DNA from: Alphaproteobacteria bacterium
GTDB lineage: Bacteria; Pseudomonadota; Alphaproteobacteria; CAAGCB01; CAG-977
Assembly: GCA_017616015.1 (NCBI GenBank)
Contig: JAFZYY010000009.1
Span: 121,517 to 185,516, forward strand
DNA length: 64,000 nucleotides
Direction of reading: 5' to 3'
Below, one piece after another: positions 2,259-53,527 of the stretch (position 1 is its first letter; the number at the start of each line of letters is the position of its first letter). The position numbers and the translations under genes were made by a program. The notes below the pieces were generated by a model. The model saw nothing but the letters and a program-made list of their open reading frames with translations. It ran no database searches and had not been told where the DNA came from.

Positions 2259-3971
2259 ATGAAAAAAAAGTATTTTCTTAGTCTGAACGCGAAAATCTTT
2301 CTTTTTTTGTTTTTAAGCTTTTCGGGAATATGCACGCTTTTTTTGCTGACGTTTATGAACAGTTACGTCAATCAGCTGGAACAGGAATCGATGCTTGTCC
2401 GCAAAAAAGCGGAAACAGTGTATGAATTATATAATGAAAACGAACAGTTAAGAAAAATCGTTTCCCAAATCCAGGAAGAACAGGAACTTTCTGAAAAAGA
2501 CTTTTTTACAAGGCTGTGGGCGGAGCAGGATTATGATATTGATTTTACTCTGAAACCGCAAAGCCAGCGCAGTTTGGAAATGCGCAAAGAAATCATGAAA
2601 GATATAAAGGACGCGCGTAAACGGGACAACAAATTTCATATGCTGGGATATTTTGTCCTCTCCGCGTTTTTGTTGGTTTTTTTCATTTTGGAATTGCTGT
2701 GGCTGATTGTGCGCCGATGGATTTTGAAACCGATTGAAAGATTGCTGGAGGCTACGCATAAAATTTCTTCCGGAGATTTAGACTTTCGCGTTTCCGTTTC
2801 TCCGAAAATTTCCAGAAGCGACGAGTTGGATATTTTGGCTCGCGATTTTAATAAAATGGCGGACGATATTCAGAAAAACATTCAAAAAATTCAGGAAAAC
2901 GAAAAGTTCTTGCAGGATATGATTGATAATATTCCGGACGGAATTCGCGTTTTTGATGAAAAATACAATATTATTCTGACGAATTCGGCTTATGACAGGA
3001 TTAATCAAAGTCTGAAGGGAAAAGAAAACAAAAAGTGTTTCGAATATTATCGCAATTCCTGCCCGTGTTCCGCCGAACAGCACCCGTGCACATTGGCTTT
3101 GCTGCGTCAGAATCCGGATAAGCCGATTAATGTTATTCAGCGCTATACGGACGAAGACGGTCGTGAAAAATTTGTTGAAGTGTCCGCGGCGGCTACTCAT
3201 CACAAAACAGAAGAAGGCGATGTTTTATGGGTAATCGAGCTTGTTCGCCCGTTGGACAAGACGATATTGTTTTCGCATCAGCAAAAGTTATCCGCGGTCG
3301 GTATGTTGGCCAGCTCGGTAGCTCATGAAATGCGTAATCCTTTGGGATCTGTCAAGCTGATTTTGGAAAATCTTTTGGACAAGATGGAAAGTAAAGATCA
3401 GCCGCCGAAAGATTTAAAGCATTATCTGAGCGTTGTTTACGATCAGATTGATATGTGTATTAATGTGACTTCGCGCCTGTTAAAACTGTCCAGAAAGCCG
3501 GAAAAGACCAATAAGCCCGTCGATATGAACGAAGTCGTTTCGGAAACGGCGTCTTTGTTGGAATACGAAGCGAAAAAAACGGGTATAGAAATTACCGTTC
3601 AGGAATCTGAAAAACCGGTTGTTATTTCCGCGGCGGACGCCGAAATGCGCATGGTTGTGGTTAATTTGATGCAAAACGCTTTTCACGCGATGCCGAACGG
3701 CGGAAAAATGGACATTAAGATTTATGCGGAGGACAAGAAGGTTTTGCTTGATTTTTCGGATACGGGAACAGGCATTGAGCCGGAAAATCTGACGCGCATT
3801 TTTGAGCCGTTCTTTTCCAAGCGCGCGGATCGTGAAAAACAGGAAGGTGTCGGTTTAGGACTGTCGATTGTAAAAACGATCATAGAAAACAGCGGCGGCA
3901 TTATTTCCGTGGAAAGCACCGTCGGGAAGGGAACGACTTTCCATTTAAGCTTTGACGCAATGTCGAAATAA
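2259..3971 (+). CDS. Membrane sensor histidine kinase with HAMP and PAS domains
   Basis: 570 residues. A first transmembrane helix lies near residues 10-31 and a second near 128-152, enclosing a short periplasmic sensor. HAMP follows (about 150-205), then a PAS domain (about 220-330), HisKA with the phosphorylated His356 in SSVAHEMRNPLG, and HATPase_c with N box (NLMQNAFHAMPNGG), G1 (DTGTGIEPE) and G2 (GVGLGLSI). The PAS part holds clustered cysteines (KKCFEYYRNSCPC, then HPC) that could bind a metal or sense redox state. No response regulator gene is next to it, so the partner is unknown. A strong hairpin follows the stop. Confidence 0.9.
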   Translation: MKKKYFLSLNAKIFLFLFLSFSGICTLFLLTFMNSYVNQLEQESMLVRKKAETVYELYNENEQLRKIVSQIQEEQELSEKDFFTRLWAEQDYDIDFTLKPQSQRSLEMRKEIMKDIKDARKRDNKFHMLGYFVLSAFLLVFFILELLWLIVRRWILKPIERLLEATHKISSGDLDFRVSVSPKISRSDELDILARDFNKMADDIQKNIQKIQENEKFLQDMIDNIPDGIRVFDEKYNIILTNSAYDRINQSLKGKENKKCFEYYRNSCPCSAEQHPCTLALLRQNPDKPINVIQRYTDEDGREKFVEVSAAATHHKTEEGDVLWVIELVRPLDKTILFSHQQKLSAVGMLASSVAHEMRNPLGSVKLILENLLDKMESKDQPPKDLKHYLSVVYDQIDMCINVTSRLLKLSRKPEKTNKPVDMNEVVSETASLLEYEAKKTGIEITVQESEKPVVISAADAEMRMVVVNLMQNAFHAMPNGGKMDIKIYAEDKKVLLDFSDTGTGIEPENLTRIFEPFFSKRADREKQEGVGLGLSIVKTIIENSGGIISVESTVGKGTTFHLSFDAMSK

Positions 3972-3991
3972 TTTAATAAAGAGCAAAAGAA

Positions 3992-4028
3992 AAGAAGCCG
4001 CGAGGAGGACTCAAATTCGCGGCTTCTT
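3992..4028. terminator. Bidirectional terminator between the kinase and the first Cys-rich gene
   Basis: AAGAAGCCGCGA and its exact reverse complement flank a 13-base loop, giving a 12-bp stem with an A-rich left side. It can end both the kinase transcript and the minus-strand Cys-rich transcript. Confidence 0.75.
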
Positions 4029-4058
4029 CGTTATGGAGCAATCAACTATCGGTTAGTT

Positions 4059-5777
4059 TTATGCTCCGCTACCGGGTTGAGACAGTCCTGAGGATACGCA
4101 TTCTCCCCGGTTATTTAATGTGTAGCCGCTTTTGCACGCTGTGCAATATCCGGCCGAGCAACCGTCCGCGCAGTTAGCCGGACATCCGATGTTTACACAC
4201 GTTCCCAGTGCTGGGTGGTATACTTGCCCGCTGGGACAATTTGAGACGCATTGTCCGTTTCGCAGTGTATATCCGCTGGAACAGTTGGTACACGTTACGT
4301 TGGTAGTCCAGCCGTCTTTGCCGTTTCCGCCGTTGCTGCTGGTACATTGCGTGCAACCGGCTATCGCGTCGGAACAAGCCGGGCATCCGCCGTTATTGTA
4401 TTCCATGTAATGTCCTGATGCGCAGGCCGGGCAATATCCTAACTGTATTTGCTTTTCGCAAGTGGAATTCGGATAAGCGCAGTTTGTGAAGCACGCCGGA
4501 TACACGCATCTGTTTAATACGGGGTGATACACTTCGTTAGAAGCGCATGTCGGCGTATTCGAGACGCATTGCCCGTTTTTCAATGTGTATCCGCTGGCGC
4601 ATCTGGAACACGTTACGCCGCTTGAGCTGCTGGAACACTGCGTGCAGTTTGCGACCGCCGTAGAGCAGGCCGGGCATGTTCCGTCGGTGTAGTTCAGGTA
4701 ATATCCGGAGCTGCAAGCTATGCAGTAGTATTCTGTCGAATGACAATTCGCACAATTCGCAACGCATTTTTGCTGAATGCATTTCTGAAGAGTCGGATGA
4801 TAAACGTAACCGGTGGGACACGTCGGCGTATTCGAGACGCATTGCCCGTTTTCCAATGTGTATCCGCTGGCGCATCTGGAACACGTTACGCCTGTCGAGC
4901 TGCTAGAACACTGCGTGCAGTTTGCGATCGCCGTAGAGCAGGCCGGGCATGTTCCGTCGGTGTAGCTCAGGTAATATCCGGAGTTGCAAGTGATGCAGTA
5001 GTATTCTGTCGAATGACAGTAATTACAATTCGCAACGCATTTTTGCTGAATGCATTTTTTAATGGTCGGGTGATAGACCTGTCCGCTGGGACATGTCGAT
5101 TCGTTTATTTCACATTGTCCGTTTTTCAGCGTGTATCCTGAGTTGCAGGTCAAACAGGTCACAGTCGATCCGGATTGTTTGCATGTTGCGCAGTTGGCAA
5201 TCTTTGTGGAACAAGCCGGACAAGTTCCGTTATCCGAAATGAAGTATCCCGTTAGCGGTTTTAACGTTGAACCGGTGCCGCAACTGTTGTCCTGACAGCC
5301 CGGAGAACAGATCGGATTATCTTTGACGCAACCGCCGTAGATTGAATTATAGGAATATCCGTTGGAGCAGGACGATTCGCAACAACACTTGTCGGAACCC
5401 GGTTTTGCAACATAACCTTCATTGCAGACTACGCCTGAACAAAACATGGTGCACTGACCGTTTGTCGGGGAAAGATATTCTCCCGTGGAGCACATTGGCA
5501 TTTGACAGACACAATATCCGCCGCTGTCGACGCCCGTATTGTATTCGCAGGGAGCTTCCTCAATTTTTATGCAGGTATCTCCGCTTTTACAATATCCTGC
5601 GCCGCAACCGGTTTGTTCTCCGCCGCCGATAATGATCTCCGGCGTTTGGATATTGGGTTTGTTAATAGAGTTGCCTGACTTTAAAGAATGGCGTCCTAAT
5701 TTGAAAACGCTGGCTTCGACCGGTGCATAGGCTGTGAACGCTAACAGCCCGATTAAAAGAAACAGATATTTTTTCAT
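4059..5777 (-). CDS. Family A secreted cysteine-rich repeat protein (572 aa)
   Basis: A signal peptide (MKKYLFLLIGLLAFTAYAPVEA) is followed by the family mark FKLGRHSL. The rest is a chain of Cys-rich modules with C-x2-C spacing and the recurring pieces VYHP, GYTLxNGQC, CPACS and NCTQC. A 91-residue unit is repeated in tandem, and the DNA is nearly identical at a 273-bp period (for example 4551 and 4824). The pattern resembles furin-like or GCC2/GCC3 repeats and protozoan variant surface proteins; that is similarity of style, not proven homology. No membrane anchor is visible at the C-terminus. It is the second gene of a B-A pair, 27 bases after the gene ending at 5805. Confidence 0.8.
   Translation of the reverse strand: MKKYLFLLIGLLAFTAYAPVEASVFKLGRHSLKSGNSINKPNIQTPEIIIGGGEQTGCGAGYCKSGDTCIKIEEAPCEYNTGVDSGGYCVCQMPMCSTGEYLSPTNGQCTMFCSGVVCNEGYVAKPGSDKCCCESSCSNGYSYNSIYGGCVKDNPICSPGCQDNSCGTGSTLKPLTGYFISDNGTCPACSTKIANCATCKQSGSTVTCLTCNSGYTLKNGQCEINESTCPSGQVYHPTIKKCIQQKCVANCNYCHSTEYYCITCNSGYYLSYTDGTCPACSTAIANCTQCSSSSTGVTCSRCASGYTLENGQCVSNTPTCPTGYVYHPTLQKCIQQKCVANCANCHSTEYYCIACSSGYYLNYTDGTCPACSTAVANCTQCSSSSSGVTCSRCASGYTLKNGQCVSNTPTCASNEVYHPVLNRCVYPACFTNCAYPNSTCEKQIQLGYCPACASGHYMEYNNGGCPACSDAIAGCTQCTSSNGGNGKDGWTTNVTCTNCSSGYTLRNGQCVSNCPSGQVYHPALGTCVNIGCPANCADGCSAGYCTACKSGYTLNNRGECVSSGLSQPGSGA
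4551..5100. repeat. Tandem 273-bp coding repeats inside the family A gene
   Basis: The stretch starting at 4551 (CGGCGTATTC, then the GAGACGCATTGCCCG block) recurs at 4824 with only scattered changes, a period of exactly 273 bp or 91 codons. This marks recent internal duplication and possible length variation by recombination. Confidence 0.75.
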
Positions 5778-5804
5778 GATAAATCTCCTTTTTTAGGGCT
5801 GTTT

Positions 5805-6107
5805 TTAGAGCACAGGGGCACAACAACAAGCGTCCGAAGATAAAACCGTTCCGGACGGACAGGTTTTAACTGTGCCTTTCGATGATGATCCGGACTTTTC
5901 CAGGCAGTAACAAGTGCCATTCGGCGTTGTTTTAGACGTGCATTCCAAATCGTCGCGCGGCGCCGGGCAGGCGTTCGCCAGACATGTTAAGTTATCCAGA
6001 TAAGTTTGACAGTAATCGTCAGTCAAAGGCTTTTCTTGCGCGCTTGCTTGCTTTAAAAATACAAGAGACGCAAGTATAAGCGTAAATATAAGTAATGAGT
6101 TTTTCAT
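5805..6107 (-). CDS. Family B small secreted cysteine-rich protein
   Basis: 100 residues: signal peptide to about ASAQ, then ten Cys in the order C, C, C, C, C-x-C, C and a terminal CCC (ACCCAPVL). The same layout returns in three other small genes of the block and four times in the 379-residue protein. The even number of Cys suggests disulfide bonding after export. I do not know the family. The ATG is preceded by GGAGGG. It is the first gene of the B-A unit that ends with the 572-residue family A gene. Confidence 0.7.
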   Translation of the reverse strand: MKNSLLIFTLILASLVFLKQASAQEKPLTDDYCQTYLDNLTCLANACPAPRDDLECTSKTTPNGTCYCLEKSGSSSKGTVKTCPSGTVLSSDACCCAPVL

Positions 6108-6455
6108 TTTACCCTCCTATTCCAGTAAGATACTATTATATTAAACTATTTTTGTAAATAAAACAAACAATACTATTTATGTTTATTATTTATTATTTTT
6201 TATTGTTATTTATTTTTTTTATGTTTTTTTTATTTTGGCTTTTTTTTATTGTGTTTTAAATGAAAGACACAATGATAAAAAAAGATCGAGGGGGGGGGAG
6301 GGAGAACGGCGAAAAAAAAGCCGAATCAAAAAAACGGATTAAAAAAAGCCGTAGCAGTAAAGAAGGCTGAAAAGGCAAGAAAAAAAACGGGCAAATAAAA
6401 AAAACGCGGGGAAAATTCCTCGCGTTTTTTTATTAATGATTGAGCTATAAGCTGT
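6108..6455. other. Intergenic region, AT-rich with G9 tract and terminator
   Basis: 348 bases between two minus-strand units. The left half is extremely T-rich on the plus strand and should hold the promoter of the gene starting at 6107. A run of nine G lies at 6290-6298, followed by A-rich sequence. In the plus direction, ATG 6260 followed by the G tract can be read in all three frames as short Lys/Arg-rich peptides, with the longest Lys/Ala-rich frame closing at a TAA near 6396. No ribosome site is visible, so I do not call a gene. A terminator closes the right side. Confidence 0.5.
6399..6431. terminator. Terminator after the 450-aa family A gene
   Basis: AAACGCGGGGAA pairs with TTCCTCGCGTTT (one G-T pair) around a short loop, with A and T runs on either side. 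It closes the minus-strand transcript of the gene at 6456-7808. Confidence 0.7.
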
Positions 6456-7808
6456 TTAGTCTTGAGCGTTATATCCAGGAGTACCGCCCTGAAGGCCTCC
6501 GCCAACGTAATCACAACCACCTTCGTTATTCAGTTGGTAGTTGTCTTCACAGCGTGAGCAGTAGTTGGACTGACAACCTTCCGCACAATGTTGCGGGCAG
6601 TTTGCAACCACGCATCTGTTCAGTACAGGATGGTAGACTTTTCCGTTGCCACAGTCAGTGCAGGTGACATTGGTTATATAACCATCTTTACCCAGTCCGC
6701 CGTTACTGCTTGTACAGGACAGACAACCCGGAATTGCATCGGAACAAGCCGGGCAACCACCCATGTCATATTCCATGTAATGTCCAGCTGCGCATGACGG
6801 GCAATATCCTAACTGTATTTGCTTTTCGCAAGCGGAGTTCGGATAAGCGCAGTTTGTGAAGCACGCCGGTAACACGCATCTTTTCAATACGGGGTGAAAT
6901 ACCTCAGAACCTTGGCATGTATCCGATATATTCGGGTCATCGCCGCCGCCTGCCGCTACGCAAGCCGTTCCCGCACTGTTCGGCACAAGGTCGCCGCTAC
7001 AGGACAGACAGATGACAGCGCCGTTTTTGCCGCCCTCTGTAGAGCATGACGTGCAGTTTGCAATCGCTGTGGAGCAAGCCGGGCATGTTCCGTCGTTGTA
7101 GTTCAGGTAATGTCCGGAGTTGCAGGCCAAGCAATAAGAGTCCGTCGCATGGCAATTTGCGCAATTTAAAACGCATTTTTGAGGAACACACTTTTTGATG
7201 ATCGTATGGTATACATAACCGGGGTCGCACGTACTGGCACCACCGCCGTTTTCCTGACAGCAACAGCTGTTACCGTTAACTACCGTATGGTATCCGTCAC
7301 GGCAGGTCACAGCGGCGCACACGCTTACGCAGGAACCTTCGTGTTTGTATTGTCCCGTCGGACAGCTGTCATTCGGCTGACTCGGCGTCCGACAACCGCA
7401 AGTTCCGTTGCCTTGACGATAACCTTCTTTACCGTCTCCGCACTTTTCCGTCCATTCGGTTACCGTGAGGCATTCCTGGGAGCTCGATTCTACGCAATAG
7501 CCCTCCCCACTGCAGGCGGGGTGTATAGTGTTGCAGGAGCAAGACCCGTTCGTATTAATAACCGTATCATTACCAGAGCAACGTGCGGCCTTAAAGTCGT
7601 CCATAGAAAGACAGTTACAACCTACTTTGCACTGTGACGGGCTACAGGAAACAGTACAGGCATGATTATGACCATCGCCGCCGAATGTGTTACCGACAAA
7701 AGGATTGATGCCAAATTTTTGCCTTCCTATTTTCTTAACGGCCGCATCAGCTTCGCCGGACACCGCGAACGCTAATAATCCAGCTATAAGGAATAAGTAT
7801 TTTTTCAT
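6456..7808 (-). CDS. Family A secreted cysteine-rich repeat protein (450 aa)
   Basis: A signal peptide (MKKYLFLIAGLLAFAVSGEADA) is followed by VKKIGRQKF, the same post-signal mark as the other family A proteins. The mature protein is Cys-rich throughout, with modules shared almost word for word with the 572-residue paralogue (ACFTNCAYPNSACEKQIQLG, HYMEYDMGGCPACSDAI, VYHPVLNRC). I start at 7808 rather than the in-frame ATG at 7820 because GGAGGG lies five bases upstream of 7808. It follows the 379-residue B-type gene by 29 bases and is closed by a terminator. Confidence 0.8.
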   Translation of the reverse strand: MKKYLFLIAGLLAFAVSGEADAAVKKIGRQKFGINPFVGNTFGGDGHNHACTVSCSPSQCKVGCNCLSMDDFKAARCSGNDTVINTNGSCSCNTIHPACSGEGYCVESSSQECLTVTEWTEKCGDGKEGYRQGNGTCGCRTPSQPNDSCPTGQYKHEGSCVSVCAAVTCRDGYHTVVNGNSCCCQENGGGASTCDPGYVYHTIIKKCVPQKCVLNCANCHATDSYCLACNSGHYLNYNDGTCPACSTAIANCTSCSTEGGKNGAVICLSCSGDLVPNSAGTACVAAGGGDDPNISDTCQGSEVFHPVLKRCVLPACFTNCAYPNSACEKQIQLGYCPSCAAGHYMEYDMGGCPACSDAIPGCLSCTSSNGGLGKDGYITNVTCTDCGNGKVYHPVLNRCVVANCPQHCAEGCQSNYCSRCEDNYQLNNEGGCDYVGGGLQGGTPGYNAQD

Positions 7809-7837
7809 TTTTCCCTCCATTTTTTTCGCAGTGTCTA

Positions 7838-8977
7838 CTAATCAATGGCTTCGTTATAAAAATCTTCATTAAGAAGCGCATCGCCGAATCGACCGGCTTG
7901 ACCGCTGACTTTCGGAACGCAACAGCACCCCTGCGTGTTCATATCCGTCGGGCAAGTCGTGATCTCATCGTATCCGTAACCGTCCGCTGCGTATCCGTCC
8001 TGACTGAATGGCTGTTCGCCGCCGCTGATGATCGTAGGATCGTCGCCGACATTAGGATTAATGGGATCCAAGCAGACGCATAATCCGCGGGATCCGACTT
8101 GATGCTCTGTACATGTATAACCGCTTACAGGCGCAGGGCAAACCGAAGTCGAACAACGGATTGAATTCGGGAAGAGTTCTGCGCACTCCTCAGCCGTCAA
8201 TTCGTTTCCTGTCACGTTGTGTTCTGGCGTAGTAGTTGTTGTACTCTGACTGGTGCCGGAATTTGCAGACCCTCTGCATTGACATGAAACGTTCGTGTTC
8301 GGAATCGTTTCAGTGTGGCAACCAAGAGCCGGAGTCTTGCATGTTTCATGACAGTTCGTATTGTAGTTTGTGCATTGCTCTTCTACCGTCGGCGGTGTCG
8401 GCGGCGTCGGCGGCGTACCGCCGCTATTGCCATTGCTTACTACGCATTTGCAAAGACCATACGGTGCCGAATAATCCTGACAAGTCTGGTTGGCTCCGGC
8501 ATGCGAAGCGCAGTTGCTGGGAGCATAACAATCTGACCCACCCTGCAATTGACAGTATGCATCGGTAATGTTTTTGGTTAAGCAGTAACAATGTCCGTAA
8601 TATAAGGACGGATACGGCTCACCTTTGTCTGTACAAGCAGTTCCAACCGGTGCGGCGCTTCCGTTGCAGTGGTTTTCGCCCCAACTGCCGTGGTTGTATG
8701 ACCAGCAAGAATCGGAATTAATGACGTTGGAATCATTTCCGTAATAAGAACGGCATTCCCCGTCTGTAATAGGACGATGCTGATCTCCGCCGCCGCTACC
8801 GGTGCCGTGACCGTCACCATAGCCGTCGCCGGAGCTTCCGCCAGTGCTACCTCCTGCCTGTCCTCCCGTGTAACCGCCGCTTGTTCCGCCGCAGTTACCT
8901 ACGCATACGCTGAATGCCTGAGAAGAAACAAGCGTCCCGGCTATCAGCGCTAATGAAAATAGTAGAGTTTTTTTCAT
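7838..8977 (-). CDS. Multi-module family B secreted cysteine-rich protein (379 aa)
   Basis: Signal peptide (MKKTLLFSLALIAGTLVSSQ, cleavage near QAFS), then a Gly/Ser-rich linker, then about four modules of the family B kind, each running C ... C ... C ... C ... C-x-C (HCYCL, LCKCV, SCQCR, LCVCL). Pro-rich and Thr-rich linkers (around TPPTPPTPP and TTTTTP) separate modules. It ends with TCPTDMNTQGCCCVP, matching the CCC tails of the small B proteins. So it reads as a fused, repeated form of the short B genes. GGAGGG precedes the ATG. It is first in the unit with the 450-residue family A gene. Confidence 0.75.
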   Translation of the reverse strand: MKKTLLFSLALIAGTLVSSQAFSVCVGNCGGTSGGYTGGQAGGSTGGSSGDGYGDGHGTGSGGGDQHRPITDGECRSYYGNDSNVINSDSCWSYNHGSWGENHCNGSAAPVGTACTDKGEPYPSLYYGHCYCLTKNITDAYCQLQGGSDCYAPSNCASHAGANQTCQDYSAPYGLCKCVVSNGNSGGTPPTPPTPPTVEEQCTNYNTNCHETCKTPALGCHTETIPNTNVSCQCRGSANSGTSQSTTTTTPEHNVTGNELTAEECAELFPNSIRCSTSVCPAPVSGYTCTEHQVGSRGLCVCLDPINPNVGDDPTIISGGEQPFSQDGYAADGYGYDEITTCPTDMNTQGCCCVPKVSGQAGRFGDALLNEDFYNEAID

Positions 8978-9064
8978 AATAAGCCCTCCTCAAACTAAAT
9001 ATATGCTTATATTAAACATCAAAATTACACGCTTTAGAAGAGATTTATACCGCTAGGGGTATTT

Positions 9065-9082
9065 TTTGTAATCATTTTGAAA
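9065..9082 (-). promoter_or_regulatory. Conserved upstream element, copy 1
   Basis: An 18-base stretch (plus strand TTTGTAATCATTTTGAAA) sits 88 bases upstream of the start at 8977. A 16/18 match lies 90 bases upstream of the start at 10811. Shared sequence at a shared distance in otherwise different AT-rich DNA suggests a binding site or promoter part. Confidence 0.4.
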
Positions 9083-9139
9083 CAAAAGGTGGAGAAAAAA
9101 GAAAAAATATTCCTTTTTTCGCGTAAAAGTCCGGAAATG

Positions 9140-9168
9140 AAAACCCTCGCGGATTAGGCGAGGGTTTT
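9140..9168. terminator. Terminator after the 437-aa family A gene
   Basis: AAAACCCTCGC and GCGAGGGTTTT form an 11-bp perfect stem with a 7-base loop. It lies just beyond the stop of the minus-strand gene at 9190. Confidence 0.8.
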
Positions 9169-9189
9169 CGTTGTTCAGATTCTTTTTCT

Positions 9190-10503
9190 TTAGTTGGCCA
9201 TGCAATAGCCGTCTACCTCATGATAAGGGGAATTGCAACTGCATGTGCCGTTGTCGTTTAACGTCCATGGGCTCTGGCATCTCAAACAGGTCCATAATCC
9301 GGTGGACGAATATGTAAAGCTACTGAAACAATGATGCGGCTCAACGTTGTAACCCGTGACGCATTTGTTCAGCTGTGTGTTCCACATTTGTCCCGATGAA
9401 CAATGAGGAAGACAGGCTTGATTCCCGACCAGTCCCGTCGAATCGTAGCCGCTGTCGCATATTCTGCAGACAACCATATCATAACCGCTTGTTAATCCGC
9501 TGCTTTGACATGTATGGCAATTCGTTATTGAAGCGGAAGAACATGAGTAACATTCTCCGTCGGCAAGACTCAGGTAATATCCGGCTTCGCACGCGGCGCA
9601 GTAATGATCCGGAACGGACGATGAACAGTGCGGATTATAAGACGTAAATATATCCACACAGTTTTGAATGACCGGATTGTAAACCTTGTCCTCGTTACAT
9701 GACATAATCGGCTGGCTCGGATCTATCGTCAGTTCGCAACGGCACCCTCCCTCGTAAGGTTGAGGCGTATATAAACTGTTGCATACGACGCCGCTGCAGT
9801 TTTCAATGCAGACTCCGTTGGTTGTGTGATGCGTTGAAAGATCGCAATCTCCCGGTCCGTCTTCGCAGTTGCATTTGCCGCCTTCGCTTACGGAATGCTG
9901 GCCTGACGGGCATGCGAAACTCGATATCGGATCGTAACAAGTGCCGTTGTTGTCCGTACACCCGGCGCATGAAGAAGAACCGTCCGGTTCGCACCCGCAT
10001 GTGCCGTTCGTGTTCTTTATGGGGTGTTGTCCCGTCGGGCATGACGGATAACTCGATACCGGATTATAACACGTGCCGTTCGATGTGCAGCCGGCGCATG
10101 AAGAACCGTCCGCTTCGCACCCGCATGTACCGTTCGCGTTCTTTATGGGGTGTTGTCCCGTCGGGCATGACGGGTAACTCGATATCGGATTATAACAAGT
10201 GCCGTTCGACAAGCACCCGGTACATTGACTTTCTAATACGCAGGCGCATATGCCGTTATTACTTATAGAGTACTGACCCGGCGGGCATCCGTAATTCGAT
10301 ATCGGATCGTAGCAGATGCCGTTTGCTCTGCACCCGCCGCATTGTCCGGGCGGTGTTCCGGGAACGTCAATGTTTCCGCCGAAAGTATTCGGGTTCAGTC
10401 CTGTTCCCAATGTCTGCCGTCCTAATTTTCGAGCCGCCGCTTCCGCGTTGTTCGTTGCCGCGAATATCAGCAGTCCTGCTAAAAGGAATATGTATTTTTT
10501 CAT
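9190..10503 (-). CDS. Family A secreted cysteine-rich repeat protein (437 aa)
   Basis: Signal peptide (MKKYIFLLAGLLIFAATNNAEA) followed by ARKLGRQTL and NPNTFGG, the family mark. The N-terminal half is a tandem array of modules built on CAGC, NGTCYNP, SYPSCPTGQHPIK and NGTCGCE, 42 residues each; the DNA repeats at 126 bp (10021 and 10147). The C-terminal half has the GYYLSLADGEC and CxxC modules found in the other A proteins. The ATG has AAGGAG upstream. It follows the B gene ending at 10518 by 14 bases. No anchor or sorting signal is visible at the C-terminus. Confidence 0.8.
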   Translation of the reverse strand: MKKYIFLLAGLLIFAATNNAEAAARKLGRQTLGTGLNPNTFGGNIDVPGTPPGQCGGCRANGICYDPISNYGCPPGQYSISNNGICACVLESQCTGCLSNGTCYNPISSYPSCPTGQHPIKNANGTCGCEADGSSCAGCTSNGTCYNPVSSYPSCPTGQHPIKNTNGTCGCEPDGSSSCAGCTDNNGTCYDPISSFACPSGQHSVSEGGKCNCEDGPGDCDLSTHHTTNGVCIENCSGVVCNSLYTPQPYEGGCRCELTIDPSQPIMSCNEDKVYNPVIQNCVDIFTSYNPHCSSSVPDHYCAACEAGYYLSLADGECYSCSSASITNCHTCQSSGLTSGYDMVVCRICDSGYDSTGLVGNQACLPHCSSGQMWNTQLNKCVTGYNVEPHHCFSSFTYSSTGLWTCLRCQSPWTLNDNGTCSCNSPYHEVDGYCMAN

Positions 10504-10517
10504 TTTTTTTCTCCTTT

Positions 10518-10811
10518 TTATTCACGTACAAGACAAGCTGTTTCGTCGTTGTTAAGGTCCATATCGTCCGGACATTCTTCGACAGGGGGAGTGGGAATCG
10601 GCTCCCAACAGAAACATTTGTCGTTGCTGTTCATCATACGAATAATGCAATATTTCCCGTCCGGCCGGCTTCCCCTGCATCGATTTTGGGAACTTTCATG
10701 ACAGTTAGAGTGAATTCGCTCTTCGCAGGAGTGTACCAATTCCGCTTTTGCTCGTCCGGAAAAGATAAACAACACTGCAGTCAGCATCAGCAATAAAGAT
10801 ATTTTTTTCAT
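10518..10811 (-). CDS. Family B small secreted cysteine-rich protein
   Basis: 97 residues. The signal peptide (MKKISLLLMLTAVLFIFSGRAKA) is nearly the same as that of the gene at 11004. The mature part has eight Cys in the family order, including the C-x-C (KCFCWE) and a final single Cys instead of CCC. AAGGAGGG precedes the ATG. It is the first gene of the unit ending with the 437-residue family A gene. Function unknown; disulfide-bonded periplasmic or secreted protein is the likely state. Confidence 0.68.
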   Translation of the reverse strand: MKKISLLLMLTAVLFIFSGRAKAELVHSCEERIHSNCHESSQNRCRGSRPDGKYCIIRMMNSNDKCFCWEPIPTPPVEECPDDMDLNNDETACLVRE

Positions 10812-10900
10812 TTTTACCCTCCTTAGATAAAGCTTCCGCTTATTATATTAGATAATAAAAAGAGCCGCATTAAAAGGATATTGTAGGGGGAGGGAGTATA

Positions 10901-10918
10901 TTTGTAACCGTTTTGAAA
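10901..10918 (-). promoter_or_regulatory. Conserved upstream element, copy 2
   Basis: Plus-strand TTTGTAACCGTTTTGAAA, 16 of 18 bases equal to the element at 9065-9082 and at almost the same distance (90 versus 88 bases) from the following minus-strand start. Confidence 0.4.
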
Positions 10919-10949
10919 AAAAAAGTTTGACCGGAAAATTTATAAACAA

Positions 10950-10978
10950 AAAGCCTTCGCGCATTATGCAAAGGCTTT
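10950..10978. terminator. Probable terminator after the lone family B gene
   Basis: AAAGCCTT and AAGGCTTT flank a 13-base middle that can partly pair (GC/GC). It lies 26 bases beyond the stop of the gene at 11004. Confidence 0.55.
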
Positions 10979-11003
10979 CGTTAACAAAAGAATTATTGTT
11001 TTC

Positions 11004-11300
11004 TTAATCGATCATATAAATGCAACTTTCATCGCCTTCTTCGCAATCCTGAACGGACTTGGAAGAAATGTTTTCCCAGCAGTAACATTTTTCCTTGCTG
11101 TTATGAAAGTCGTGAACGACGCATTGCTTTCCGGCCGGCGCGCTGCCCGAGCAGGAGTTCACATAGTCGTTACTGATCACGCACGTGTCATTATTAAACG
11201 CTTGCGCGCAATCGGTGTTGCTGAGAGTCTGTTTGTCCGCTCGTGCCGGTGTGCAAAAAACAAAAAGTGCCAACATCAGCAATAAAGATATTTTTTTCAT
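11004..11300 (-). CDS. Family B small secreted cysteine-rich protein (unpaired)
   Basis: 98 residues with signal peptide (MKKISLLLMLALFVFCTPARA) and eight mature Cys in the family B order, including KCYCWE. It is closest to the neighbour at 10518, sharing the signal peptide, GSAPAGKQC/GSRPDGKYC and the CxCWE block, so the two are likely recent duplicates. Unlike the other B genes it has no A gene directly after it: a hairpin follows the stop and the next unit has its own upstream element. An AGGGG sequence precedes the ATG. Confidence 0.68.
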   Translation of the reverse strand: MKKISLLLMLALFVFCTPARADKQTLSNTDCAQAFNNDTCVISNDYVNSCSGSAPAGKQCVVHDFHNSKEKCYCWENISSKSVQDCEEGDESCIYMID

Positions 11301-11422
11301 GGCGCCCCTGCATATTAAACTCTAAGTATATTACATATACCATAAAAACGTATTTTAGAAGAAAAATATACGCACTCTTTAAAATATATTTTGAAAATTT
11401 TTTTAAGTGGTCGCAAAAAAAT

Positions 11423-11453
11423 CCCCGCGTCTTTTTTTTCGCGGGGACTTTTT
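11423..11453. terminator. Terminator after the 252-aa family A gene
   Basis: CCCCGCG and CGCGGGG form a 7-bp GC stem over a 10-base loop, with runs of A on the left and T on the right, so it can work in both directions. The minus-strand gene ends at 11476. Confidence 0.75.
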
Positions 11454-11475
11454 TTGATAATAACAGATTCCGGCT

Positions 11476-12234
11476 TTATTCGCACGTGCGTCCGTCGGCC
11501 GACAGCGTATAGCCGTTTTTGCATACCCGACATATCACGTCGTCGCCCCAGTCCGGCGGTTCCAATTCTCCGTTGCTTTGGCAGACGGAGCAATTGGAAA
11601 TATATATTTCGCAGTCCCAACATTCGCCGTTAAAAGCGTGGCTTAAATAATATCCGATTTCGCATATCCGACAATATTCCGAAGTGGCAGATAAACAATA
11701 ATTAATATAGTCTCTTTTCGGAACACATTTGTGAAGTGACGGATGATAAACCTCGGAGCTGTTCGCGCATGTCTGCGGCTGTTCCGGCTGTGATGCGTCG
11801 GCGATACAGCAACAACCTGTCGAATTTGCTTCAGGGCTGTATCCGACATTGCATAAAACGCCGTGACAGTTGGAAACGCAATGACCGCTGCTATTCAGAT
11901 GCTCGTTTTCCGGACATGTCGTCGCGGAATTGTTTTTTTTGCAACCGCATGAGCCGTCAGGCTTCTTTACTGGTGTATAATCCTGCGGGCAACCGGAGTA
12001 ATCCGACACCGGATTATAACAAACGCCCTCCGCTTTGCAGCCGGCGCATGATTCCGGAGGCGGAGGCGGAGGAGGTGGAGAAGGCGGTGTCGGAACGTCT
12101 CCGCCGACAGCAATGCTGTTCGGATTGATGCCACCGTAGAGTGTTTGACGTCCCAGTTTCTTTGTTTTTGCTTCGGTAAATCCGATCGTTGCAAATATAA
12201 ACAAGCTTGCTAAAAGGAAAATGCTCTTTTTCAT
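11476..12234 (-). CDS. Family A secreted cysteine-rich protein, short form (252 aa)
   Basis: Signal peptide (MKKSIFLLASLFIFATIGFTEA) followed by TKKLGRQTL and INPNS, as in the longer A proteins. A Pro-rich linker (poly-P near residue 55) leads to one CAGCKAEGVCYNPVSDY module like those of the 437-residue paralogue, then VYHPSLHKCVPKR and two CxxC modules ending VCKNGYTLSADGRTCE. So it has the same parts with fewer copies. It begins 12 bases after the B gene at 12247; AAGGAGG lies before the ATG. Confidence 0.78.
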   Translation of the reverse strand: MKKSIFLLASLFIFATIGFTEAKTKKLGRQTLYGGINPNSIAVGGDVPTPPSPPPPPPPPESCAGCKAEGVCYNPVSDYSGCPQDYTPVKKPDGSCGCKKNNSATTCPENEHLNSSGHCVSNCHGVLCNVGYSPEANSTGCCCIADASQPEQPQTCANSSEVYHPSLHKCVPKRDYINYCLSATSEYCRICEIGYYLSHAFNGECWDCEIYISNCSVCQSNGELEPPDWGDDVICRVCKNGYTLSADGRTCE

Positions 12235-12246
12235 AGTTTCCTCCTT

Positions 12247-12555
12247 TTATTCCAGTACGCAACAGCAATGATCGGCGCTTTCCGTCATATCGTCCGCGCA
12301 TTTTTTTACAGGAGGCAGAGAAACTTCTTCCAAACAGGAACATTTCCAGCTGGGATCCCAAAAACTTGGAAAAGAACGGGTGACGCATTCCGTTCCTTCC
12401 GCTACGGCCAAACACGAATTGCCTAACCAGCAAAGCTGATTGGTAAAAGAAATTTGGCAGTCTGTGGTTGTCGGGTTCTGATAAGCATGCGTTTGTTTAA
12501 TAAAAACAAACGATGCTAGTATTAAAGCAATAAAAAAAGTAAATGCCTTATTCAT
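12247..12555 (-). CDS. Family B small secreted cysteine-rich protein
   Basis: 102 residues: signal peptide (MNKAFTFFIALILASFVFIKQTHA), then ten Cys in family order with KCSCLE and the tail HCCCVLE. It is closest in layout to the B gene at 5805 (C-C-C-C-CxC-C-CCC). GAGGAGG precedes the ATG. It is first in the unit with the 252-residue A gene. The 120 bases upstream are very AT-rich and should carry the promoter. Confidence 0.68.
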   Translation of the reverse strand: MNKAFTFFIALILASFVFIKQTHAYQNPTTTDCQISFTNQLCWLGNSCLAVAEGTECVTRSFPSFWDPSWKCSCLEEVSLPPVKKCADDMTESADHCCCVLE

Positions 12556-12677
12556 TGTAGATTCCTCCTCAAAATATACAAGAATAATAATATTCTAATA
12601 TTTATATAATATTTTTAAAAGTGAATATTTTATTTCATGCTTATTTTAAATAAATGTTTGTGATTGTATAAAAATAA

Positions 12678-12708
12678 AAGTGTAAAAGAGAGAATCTCTT
12701 TTACACTT
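12678..12708. terminator. Terminator after the methyltransferase gene
   Basis: AAGTGTAAAAGAGA and its exact reverse complement form a 14-bp stem with a three-base loop; the minus side continues into T-rich sequence. It separates the methyltransferase from the Cys-rich block. Confidence 0.75.
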
Positions 12709-12744
12709 GGGATTGTTTAAGTTTTTACTTGGAAGGCCGGACTC

Positions 12745-13326
12745 TTAATCGGCGTTTTTCTGATATATAAAAACTTTTGTCGGGATTTTAAGCGTGTCCG
12801 TTTGTATCTTTTCTTTTAATCGCAAAGAACCTAATTCAAATGTTTCGGAAACGATAAGCGCGTCTTTCGAAATCTCCTGATTCAGTTTTTCGCCCAAAAT
12901 CGCCGATAAAGACTCGCCTGTGTAACACATGATTAGTTGCATGTCGCCATAGCTTTCTTTCATAAAGTTGCGGCGGTATATATGAACATTCGGCAGTTTT
13001 CGCGAGCGGAATTTCGCAATCAGGTACGGAACAATATCCCAGTCGTACCCAATAAAATGATGTTGGGGAAATTTTTTCGCCAGAGGAATCAGCAGACTGC
13101 CGCTACCGCACCCCAAATCGGCGACGTTAACGGGATCCTTTTTTTCCTGTAAGATTTTTTCGGCTTCCTGAATGACAATCTTTTTCGCTTTGCCCAAAGA
13201 ACAGACAAAAGGCGGATACTTCCCGAAACCGGAACGCAAATATGTGATAAAAAAGTAAAGCGTGAAAACGCACGCGCCTAAACCAATAAATAAAGCTAAA
13301 AGAACAATAATATTATTAATAAGCAT
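12745..13326 (-). CDS. Membrane-anchored class I SAM-dependent methyltransferase
   Basis: 193 residues. One hydrophobic helix at about residues 5-29 anchors the N-terminus. The soluble part has the SAM-binding motif I VADLGCGSGSLLIPLAKKF, and an acidic strand end (FIGYDWD) for motif II. No substrate-specific motif is visible, so the target is unknown. Related proteins are often annotated only as class I SAM methyltransferases. It is transcribed away from the acetyltransferase pair at 13447, with a 120-base shared promoter region. Confidence 0.75.
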   Translation of the reverse strand: MLINNIIVLLALFIGLGACVFTLYFFITYLRSGFGKYPPFVCSLGKAKKIVIQEAEKILQEKKDPVNVADLGCGSGSLLIPLAKKFPQHHFIGYDWDIVPYLIAKFRSRKLPNVHIYRRNFMKESYGDMQLIMCYTGESLSAILGEKLNQEISKDALIVSETFELGSLRLKEKIQTDTLKIPTKVFIYQKNAD

Positions 13327-13446
13327 TTTTATATCCTGTCTTTTCTTGAAAACCGTTTCAGAATATCATAAAGAATATGTGCGATTTAAGAAATATTTTC
13401 CGTTGTAATAAATGTTTCAAGAATAATCAGGAGCGCTAAAAAAAAG

Positions 13447-14004
13447 ATGCTGAAAGAAAAAATATCCGGACAGAGAATAAGCCTGACACGTCCGTTGCCG
13501 GATAAAAAAACGGCCGGAATCATTTTTAATTCTATGGATAAAAGCAGAAAAGCGCTTTCTCCGTGGCTTTATTGGGTGAATGATACGCAATCGCCGGACG
13601 ATACTTTACGGTTTTTAGAAGAGGTTGATCAGGATTGGAATGATCAAAAGCAATTCGTTTATGCAATTTCTTTTCAAAATAATTTCATCGGTCTGATCAG
13701 TGCGATTTGTGTGTCTTGGCGACATAAAAGAGTGGAAATCGGATACTGGCTGGATACGGATTACACGGGGCAGGGCTTTATGCGGGAAGCCGTTTCCTTG
13801 CTTGAAAAAGAGCTGTTCGCGAACGGCTTTAACAGAATAGTCATTCATACCGATGTGCTGAATACGAAATCGGCTAATGTCGCCCGAAAACTCGGTTACG
13901 TTCACGAAGGCGTCCTGCGTCAGGAACGCTATTCCGAAACACAAGGACGTTTCAGAGATACAAACGTGTTTTCAAAACTGAAGTCGGATTTAAAAGAGGG
14001 ATAA
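13447..14004 (+). CDS. GNAT acetyltransferase, RimJ/RimL type
   Basis: 185 residues with the RimJ/RimL layout: substrate-side N-terminus (SMDKSRKALSPWLYW), EIGYWLDTDYTGQGFMREAV carrying the acetyl-CoA-binding turn (Q/R-x-x-G-x), and the C-terminal NTKSANVARKLGYVHEGVLR. RimJ/RimL enzymes acetylate the N-terminus of ribosomal proteins, but relatives act on other amines, so the substrate is open. AGGAG lies 13 bases before the ATG. It ends two bases before the next GNAT gene, so the two are co-transcribed. Confidence 0.85.
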   Translation: MLKEKISGQRISLTRPLPDKKTAGIIFNSMDKSRKALSPWLYWVNDTQSPDDTLRFLEEVDQDWNDQKQFVYAISFQNNFIGLISAICVSWRHKRVEIGYWLDTDYTGQGFMREAVSLLEKELFANGFNRIVIHTDVLNTKSANVARKLGYVHEGVLRQERYSETQGRFRDTNVFSKLKSDLKEG

Positions 14005-52930: not shown

Positions 52931-53527
52931 TTATTTTTCTGAAAAAACATTTTCTTTTTTCAGCAGATTGCTCAGACAGATCATGTTTTTCAGGCAAGGA
53001 ATGCTCTGAACGCCGAAAATAATTGTCGTATGATCAAAAATCAGGCAGGGAACGGCGCGCAACCCTTCCGGCATGTTGGCCGGCAAAGGATTTCGGCTCG
53101 GATTTCTATGTTCCGCGTTCAGGGGTAATCCGTAATGTTCCGCAATCGGGCGGATTGTTTCCGGGACACTGACATCTTTGCCGAAGGAAAAAAAAGCGCT
53201 GAATATATCGTCCAGAACATTGTATTCTTTTTTGCTGAAGGCGGTACGCACCAATTCGCAGGGCAGGGAAAGATCCGAAGAAAGTTCCGGAATGGCGTCG
53301 AAATTAACGGATATTCCCGCTTCCCGCAGGAAAGGGCGCGTCTTTTCTTCCAGCATTCTGGCTCTGTCGGCGGCCTGAATATCAAATCCCGGGAAGAAAG
53401 AGTCTCCGTTTATAAAGAAAGGCGATATAGTCGCCCGAGCCGCGTTTTCTTCCAGCGCCGTCCGTAGCTGACGCCAGGCAATATATGACCATAAACAGGT
53501 GATGTCTAATATAAAGTCAATATTCAT
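52931..53527 (-). CDS. DsbA/FrnE-like thioredoxin-fold protein
   Basis: 198 residues without a signal peptide, so cytoplasmic. The N-terminal active-site position reads DITCLWSYI: a single Cys followed by Ser where oxidoreductases have C-x2-C. A later GLRAVPCLIFD offers the cis-Pro loop. The middle helical insert and the lack of CxxC fit the FrnE/2-hydroxychromene-2-carboxylate isomerase branch. Redox exchange is therefore doubtful; isomerase or glutathione chemistry is possible. A short gap separates it from the plus-strand operon at 53607. Confidence 0.68.
   Translation of the reverse strand: MNIDFILDITCLWSYIAWRQLRTALEENAARATISPFFINGDSFFPGFDIQAADRARMLEEKTRPFLREAGISVNFDAIPELSSDLSLPCELVRTAFSKKEYNVLDDIFSAFFSFGKDVSVPETIRPIAEHYGLPLNAEHRNPSRNPLPANMPEGLRAVPCLIFDHTTIIFGVQSIPCLKNMICLSNLLKKENVFSEK

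Follow-up and report, generated by a model that had tools for sequence, protein, structure and literature searches.

Paired genes for cysteine-rich, predicted exported proteins in an alphaproteobacterial genus: candidates for a mosaic, phase-variable surface repertoire

Introduction

Variable coats of CxxC-rich proteins occur in gut protists. The VSPs of Giardia are cysteine-rich and CxxC-bearing, with a variable body and a constant C-terminal end, and their hallmarks are a C-terminal membrane segment and a CRGKA tail. Here we describe a family of cysteine-rich proteins encoded in a 64,000-nt stretch of an Alphaproteobacteria bacterium genome (contig JAFZYY010000009.1, positions 121,517–185,516; the whole stretch is referred to below as the window), in which a gene for a protein that we call B is followed closely by a gene for a protein that we call A. 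The B–A pairs recur across the genus, a constant tail closes most B proteins and A carries a constant head, many units of sister species stand behind a promoter element with a poly-C tract, and the copies in one genome are mosaics of one another. We put at about even the chances that the family is a mosaic surface-protein repertoire, phase-variable in sister species, likely surface-displayed and resembling the Giardia VSPs.

For Bordetella, PMC10172299 states that the activity of the fim3 promoter is set by the length of a poly(C) tract, 14 C being on and 13 C off, so that fim3 is no longer expressed once a single C is lost. A bacterial system like the present one was not found described, at the level of titles and abstract openings.

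Results

Four B–A units and a lone B gene

The genome to which the window belongs (G000) is a 2.09-Mb draft in 34 contigs, and the window lies within contig C25. A sequence-only reading of the window had listed nine minus-strand genes for cysteine-rich proteins with signal peptides, arranged as four B–A pairs and a lone B gene, and all of these ORFs were found as claimed:

12247–12555, minus strand: B gene of unit 1, 102 aa, signal peptide, C-x10-CCC tail intact
11476–12234, minus strand: A gene of unit 1, 252 aa, KLGRQ head, furin-like C-terminal repeat
11004–11300, minus strand: lone B gene, 98 aa, degenerate tail
10518–10811, minus strand: B gene of unit 2, 97 aa, degenerate tail
9190–10503, minus strand: A gene of unit 2, 437 aa, KLGRQ head
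7838–8977, minus strand: B gene of unit 3, 379 aa, several 6-Cys modules, CCC and then 26 more residues
6456–7808, minus strand: A gene of unit 3, 450 aa, KIGRQ head, second in-frame ATG at 7820
5805–6107, minus strand: B gene of unit 4, 100 aa, C-x10-CCC tail intact
4059–5777, minus strand: A gene of unit 4, 572 aa, KLGRH head, 18 CxxC

The short spacing within pairs was likewise borne out, with 12, 14, 29 and 27 nt between B stop and A start in the four units and a GGAG-type site ahead of each A gene. All nine proteins open with a hydrophobic stretch that resembles a signal peptide. No lipobox was detected in any of the nine by a simple pattern check, nor did the hydropathy check detect a second hydrophobic segment beyond the signal peptide, so that no membrane anchor is visible. 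Cysteine makes up 7.9–13.1% of the nine proteins, and CxxC motifs number 5, 9, 10 and 18 in the four A proteins and zero in the five B proteins. An ORF scan of the entire 64 kb returned no further cysteine-rich ORF with a signal-like start besides these nine, and the cluster is therefore not due to chance.

Three further A-like paralogues of 762, 586 and 1820 aa lie consecutively on another contig of the same genome (C32; L019 7952–17696, plus strand). Their head reads K[LV]GR, none has a B gene next to it, and the row is flanked by infC-like and peptidase-like genes, named by eye.

Recurrence of the pair in the genus

The sequence-only reading had proposed profile searches across genomes as a check on the pairing. 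These showed that B–A adjacency recurs: loci from all seven genomes of the genus hold 25 pairs (four in G000, one each in G001, G002 and G006, seven in G003, five in G004 and six in G005), and the copies have multiplied and diverged, in agreement with the proposal that the pair was duplicated and diversified. The gap between B and A is 10–34 nt across these pairs; in L136 it is 11 nt, or 95 in one count that used a later start. Pairing is not obligatory, so that the proposed joint action of A and B is not a rule: 12 A genes without B (three each in G000, G001, G003 and G004) and six B genes whose downstream DNA is readable but holds no A (one in G000, four in G002, one in G004) stand alone. 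Four more B genes are truncated by contig ends (two in G002, one each in G003 and G005).

The tally was corrected by hand and covers the loci fetched, so it is no census. The scripted count alone gave 19 pairs. Six more were added: the two pairs of the window whose B tails diverge, L136 and L203, for which the script had taken too early a start, L134 of G006, in which the A head reads KLFS, and L179, which had been outside the scripted set. Four B rows of the script were discarded as chance hits, two of them in L048 and the others in L126 and L137. Included in the tally are L133, with a seemingly interrupted B, and pairs whose A overruns a contig end; it leaves out the contig-end A fragments L054–L057 and the B-like starts of L202 and L214, which are cut before the tail. 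In L133 (5017–6224, minus strand) the apparent interruption falls between B body and tail and the A gene next to it is intact. One B gene of G001 (L076, 981–1628, minus strand) has no signal-like ATG start by script.

The A profile matched five of 61 genomes, all within the genus, and at E ≤ 1e-6 three of 289 genomes of the class (G000, G003, and G007 of a sister genus), while a short-A profile matched one of 398 genomes of the phylum, namely the source genome itself. The B profile matched eight of 12 family genomes: the seven of the genus and G008 of a sister genus, with a degenerate tail. The A profile gave no match in G001, which has a pair, in either the 61- or the 289-genome search, nor in G006 in the 61-genome search; since the profiles miss known members, absence elsewhere holds only at that sensitivity.

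Constant ends and variable bodies

Most B proteins carry, just before the stop, a constant tail resembling TVxSCPxxMTLSxDGCCCxN, with an NCC variant in L209. In the window it is intact in the B genes at 5805 and 12247, degenerate in those at 10518 and 11004, and followed by 26 residues in that at 7838. The fixed cysteine order seen in B by the sequence-only reading is real in the small B proteins, but the part that is constant across the genus is the tail and not the body; in the B protein of L051 the only cysteines are the four of the tail. In the A proteins the signal peptide is followed, in some cases beyond an insert, by AKAxKLGR or a sequence near it, and the KLGRQ-like mark noticed earlier is found as KLGRQ in units 1 and 2, KIGRQ in unit 3 and KLGRH in unit 4. 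In 13 comparisons among eight units of G003 and G005, one A of which is truncated by a contig end, identities were 45–74% for A, 11–66% for B bodies and 64–95% for B tails. CCC motifs occur in both A and B proteins, A proteins are 112 to 1820 aa long depending on the number of repeats, and single members of the family contain up to 75 cysteines.

A poly-C promoter element

Many units of sister species are preceded, at about 70–83 nt, by an element of the form TTGTTACA-CTT-TTGTTACAAATAT(G/A)-C(n)-AT(G/A)T, in which the core TTACAAATAT(G/A) is fused to a poly-C tract, mostly of 12–16 C. The upstream TTGTTACA-like direct repeats are present in two copies 11 bp apart, and some bases of the element differ in the G004 and G001 copies. 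A search of 12 family genomes with TTACAAATATRCCCCC, allowing at most one mismatch, gave 30 sites (14 in G003 and eight in G004), compared with one for the reversed pattern. Seven of these sites lie at contig edges and one, in G009, was outside the count of downstream genes. At the 22 readable sites the downstream gene was 19 times a B gene or an A gene with a KLG(R/H) head (including L202, judged by its first 37 residues, and L133 with its interrupted B); the other three were an open cysteine-rich signal-peptide ORF (L194) and something else in L201 and L170. Lone A genes were also found behind the element. Long uninterrupted tracts are thus a feature of the sister species: the C run is 12–16 at 15 of the 19 family-gene sites, 9, 6 and 5 at three, and interrupted at the one in the window. 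The longest run over all element sites was 21 C, at a contig edge.

The following tracts are present in the window:

10892–10907, minus strand: element with interrupted C tract, TTACAAATATACTCCC, upstream of unit 2, one mismatch
9056–9071, minus strand: looser copy of the element, TTACAAAAAATACCCC, upstream of unit 3
6290–6298, minus strand: C9 tract 183–191 nt upstream of unit 4, the only C/G run of at least 7 in the window, outside the TTACAAATAT element

No long uninterrupted promoter C tract was found in the window, the first two being interrupted or short and the third outside the element, and because the tract is interrupted the window units are probably locked in one state.

Runs of at least 10 C number 24 in G003, 21 in G004 and three in G000. 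The idea that poly-C is exclusive to the A/B family was ruled out, as at least half of these runs stand without the element. In L052 (5077–5530, minus strand) a C15 tract lies just past the stop of a short cysteine-rich signal-peptide ORF and could be an in-gene switch. On contig C27 of G008, in the sister genus, two near-identical poly-C sites stand about 1 kb apart (L225, 1023 and 2084, plus strand); no B or A gene was read downstream of them, one being at a contig edge.

Mosaic copies

Two A copies of G003 have 97.7% identity across 740 nt. In the same genome, promoter and signal-peptide DNA is common to a B gene and to A genes, at 91–97% over 130–169 nt, after which the sequences diverge, and two units are alike at 89% over 643 nt, mostly in A, and then different. 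Half of the G003 element sites (7/14) are at contig edges, as expected of near-identical repeats.

Comparison with protein families

None of the nine window proteins exceeded the cut-off in Pfam, none of six tested did so in NCBIfam, and a sequence search of the PDB gave nothing above cut-off for the window proteins tested. By these comparisons no curated family of Pfam or NCBIfam covers the window proteins. Searching a protein database with one A returned the protein itself, one window paralogue and one metagenome protein; the short A proteins gave 77 matches, of which the six with a visible source name were 'Alphaproteobacteria bacterium' hypothetical proteins, and the B proteins gave 13, one of them the window's own B. 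With respect to a phage or viral origin, A gave no match by tblastn in phage records, and one scan of viral contigs with the A of a relative yielded none that was confirmed.

Two of five B relatives (P0083 and P0086) scored above the Pfam gathering cut-off for VSP (PF03302), with 46.7 and 32.6 against 31.4, and four of 18 B proteins matched it at E ≤ 1e-3; none of the nine window proteins reached the gathering cut-off. Pattern and hydropathy checks found neither CRGKA nor a C-terminal membrane segment in any of the nine. The longest (1820 aa) A paralogue of the source genome contains 17 Ephrin_rec_like stretches (E 2.5e-38), and weak similarity to furin-like and R-spondin repeats is confined to the C-terminal repeat of A. 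A Pfam MSC match in one long B was rejected as a chance match of cysteine spacing, the best stretch being 26 residues.

Cysteine parity

In 20 complete pairs of the 25, the mature protein being taken from residue 21 on, the number of cysteines was even in 17 of 20 B proteins and odd in 13 of 20 A proteins, and odd in both partners in three; as the units are related, this is no formal test. A DSBA-like protein is encoded in the window at 52934–53527.

Terminators

The units had been described as separated by clear terminators. The number of terminator-like sites is not above chance (nine, against 11.9 with sd 3.1 in shuffles), but a terminator scan did place two hairpins between units:

10949–10979, minus strand: terminator-like hairpin after the lone B gene
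12678–12708, minus strand: terminator-like hairpin between the upstream gene and unit 1

A leader RNA in relatives

Upstream of nine B genes in G001, G003 and G005 stands a conserved leader, about 280 nt long, in which a terminator-like hairpin precedes the start codon. Three of these leaders, and one listed besides the nine, are located as follows:

L135 4650–4921, plus strand: leader RNA before a B gene
L131 5227–5506, minus strand: leader RNA before a B gene
L141 4057–4336, plus strand: leader RNA before a B gene
L056 3360–3640, minus strand: leader RNA outside the nine

The predicted structure of 68 pairs was paired in 96.8% of cells compared with 35–47% when slid, and 18 pairs were changed on both sides compared with 2–5 when slid; the structure was derived from the tested sequences themselves, which favours the pairing figures. 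A covariance model of the leader core, built on 10 sequences, matched 13 of 61 genomes and six of 52 genera. At 20 leader loci the next ORF, judged by eye, was a B gene in four, lipoprotein-, signal-peptide- or barrel-like in seven, another gene in four (one integrase-like) and unread in five. The leaders in six loci had no match in Rfam at the gathering threshold. One leader tested alone gave a sub-threshold match over the full model length to sRNA-Xcc1 (RF02221; 34.5 bits, E 1.5e-4), which does not reach the gathering score of 53 bits. In Xanthomonas, sRNA-Xcc1 is placed upstream of symE in cassettes by PMC12444791.

The covariance model found these copies in the source genome:

G000 C31:108027–108191, minus strand
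G000 C4:262031–262199, minus strand
G000 C4:254091–254257, plus strand
G000 C4:261278–261443, minus strand

These contigs hold no known B or A gene, and the ORF after the C31 copy is neither. Control of the window units by the leader was ruled out, since the four copies in this genome lie on C31 and C4 and window positions 3000–14000 have no Rfam match. The leader is possibly a new class of regulatory RNA, and is a lead separate from the surface-protein reading.

Discussion

If the family forms a changeable coat, signal peptides would carry A and B out of the cytoplasm, each unit putting out one variable B together with an A with a constant head. The A head and B tail would be docking or assembly tags. 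Strand slippage in poly-C would alter the position of the upstream site, formed by TTGTTACA-like direct repeats, with respect to the −10 box and thereby switch individual units, as at the fim promoters of Bordetella, and recombination between copies would generate new mosaics. It is the surface location, the switching and the docking that we infer. Besides the recurrent pairing, the constant ends, the poly-C element and the mosaics, the modules that resemble those of eukaryotic surface proteins, seen in two B relatives and in one A paralogue, speak for this reading.

Several observations weigh against this scheme. With no membrane anchor visible, a secreted or periplasmic location is equally possible. 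Neither DsbB nor VKOR was matched in any of the seven genomes of the genus (three and one, respectively, of 12 searched genomes and six and three of 14 controls were positive), which is awkward for a disulfide-rich coat. The three long C runs of the source genome are not at B or A genes, and switching is therefore not claimed for the window. In the sister species the element is present at 12 of the 24 long runs of G003 and eight of the 21 of G004, poly-C occurring also away from the family, and among 20 further C-run regions two (L214 and L215, both G004) lie ahead of family genes. The unpaired A and B genes count on the same side, and a structure model of B was unusable (pLDDT 60).

An alternative is a secreted, cross-linked fibre or matrix, an adhesin or biofilm material that would have no part in antigenic variation, with A as the repeat-bearing block and B as its cap or linker. 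The length of A follows repeat number, its repeats show weak furin-like and in one paralogue clear Ephrin_rec_like similarity, to repeats that are found in receptor ectodomains, the odd cysteine number of most A proteins permits intermolecular A–A bonds, and an anchor is lacking. However, strongly variable B bodies with constant tails, and one poly-C promoter per unit, are left unexplained, and we regard a fibre as unlikely. Somewhat less probable again is a secreted system for binding metals or thiols, in which most of the cysteines would be free thiols or metal ligands and would not build a disulfide-held coat; DsbB and VKOR go unmatched in the genus although controls were positive, and 5 to 18 CxxC per window A protein are in keeping with this.

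A role of B as a variable effector against competitors or hosts, with A as carrier or partner as in other variable-plus-constant secreted cassettes, would account for a variable body with a constant C-terminal tail and for the constant partner gene directly downstream. It seems quite improbable to us, as the Pfam matches of the B proteins tested include no toxin or enzyme family and A is also found alone behind the same promoter element. Least probable of all is the obligate, disulfide-linked A–B heterodimer proposed by the sequence-only reading. Recurrent adjacency and the CCC motifs of both partners speak for it, but lone A and lone B genes exist, and both cysteine parity and the missing DsbB and VKOR matches count against it, so that a disulfide-held A–B complex is unproven and not favoured.

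A stronger version of the coat, as a bacterial counterpart of the Giardia variant antigens with dozens of switchable, recombining units, the B tail docked on the A head, and the coat oxidised or built by an unknown route without DsbB or VKOR, the enzymes known to make disulfides, is possible, though we consider it doubtful. That DsbB and VKOR went unmatched in the genus raises the question of whether proteins bearing as many as 75 cysteines become oxidised at all, and if so by what means, and the putative tags on B and A offer handles for finding the assembly machinery.

Of the known systems, sRNA-Xcc1 resembles the leader below its gathering score, and here the similar sequence belongs to a longer leader, of about 280 nt, that precedes B genes as well as several further genes of exported type. 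The likeness to the furin-like repeats of R-spondins is weak and limited to the C-terminal repeat of A, in bacterial proteins without the Wnt-pathway context. Bordetella pertussis fim2 and fim3 share with the present units poly(C) in the promoter of a surface-protein gene, mostly of 12–16 C here, where the surface role is putative; unlike fim, the units occur many times in a genome, have different repeats upstream (TTGTTACA-like), encode an unrelated protein and have a length effect that is so far a prediction. If the coat is real, a bacterial family with a body plan like that of the VSPs, per-unit poly-C promoters and mosaics would be a new example of surface variation that arose by convergence or by exchange. 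The family differs from the Giardia VSPs in its two-gene units and its bacterial promoters with poly-C tracts, and no window protein exceeds the PF03302 cut-off; it is like them in joining, in B, a variable body to a constant C-terminal end, and in being a cysteine-rich family of putative surface type, two of whose B members do exceed it.

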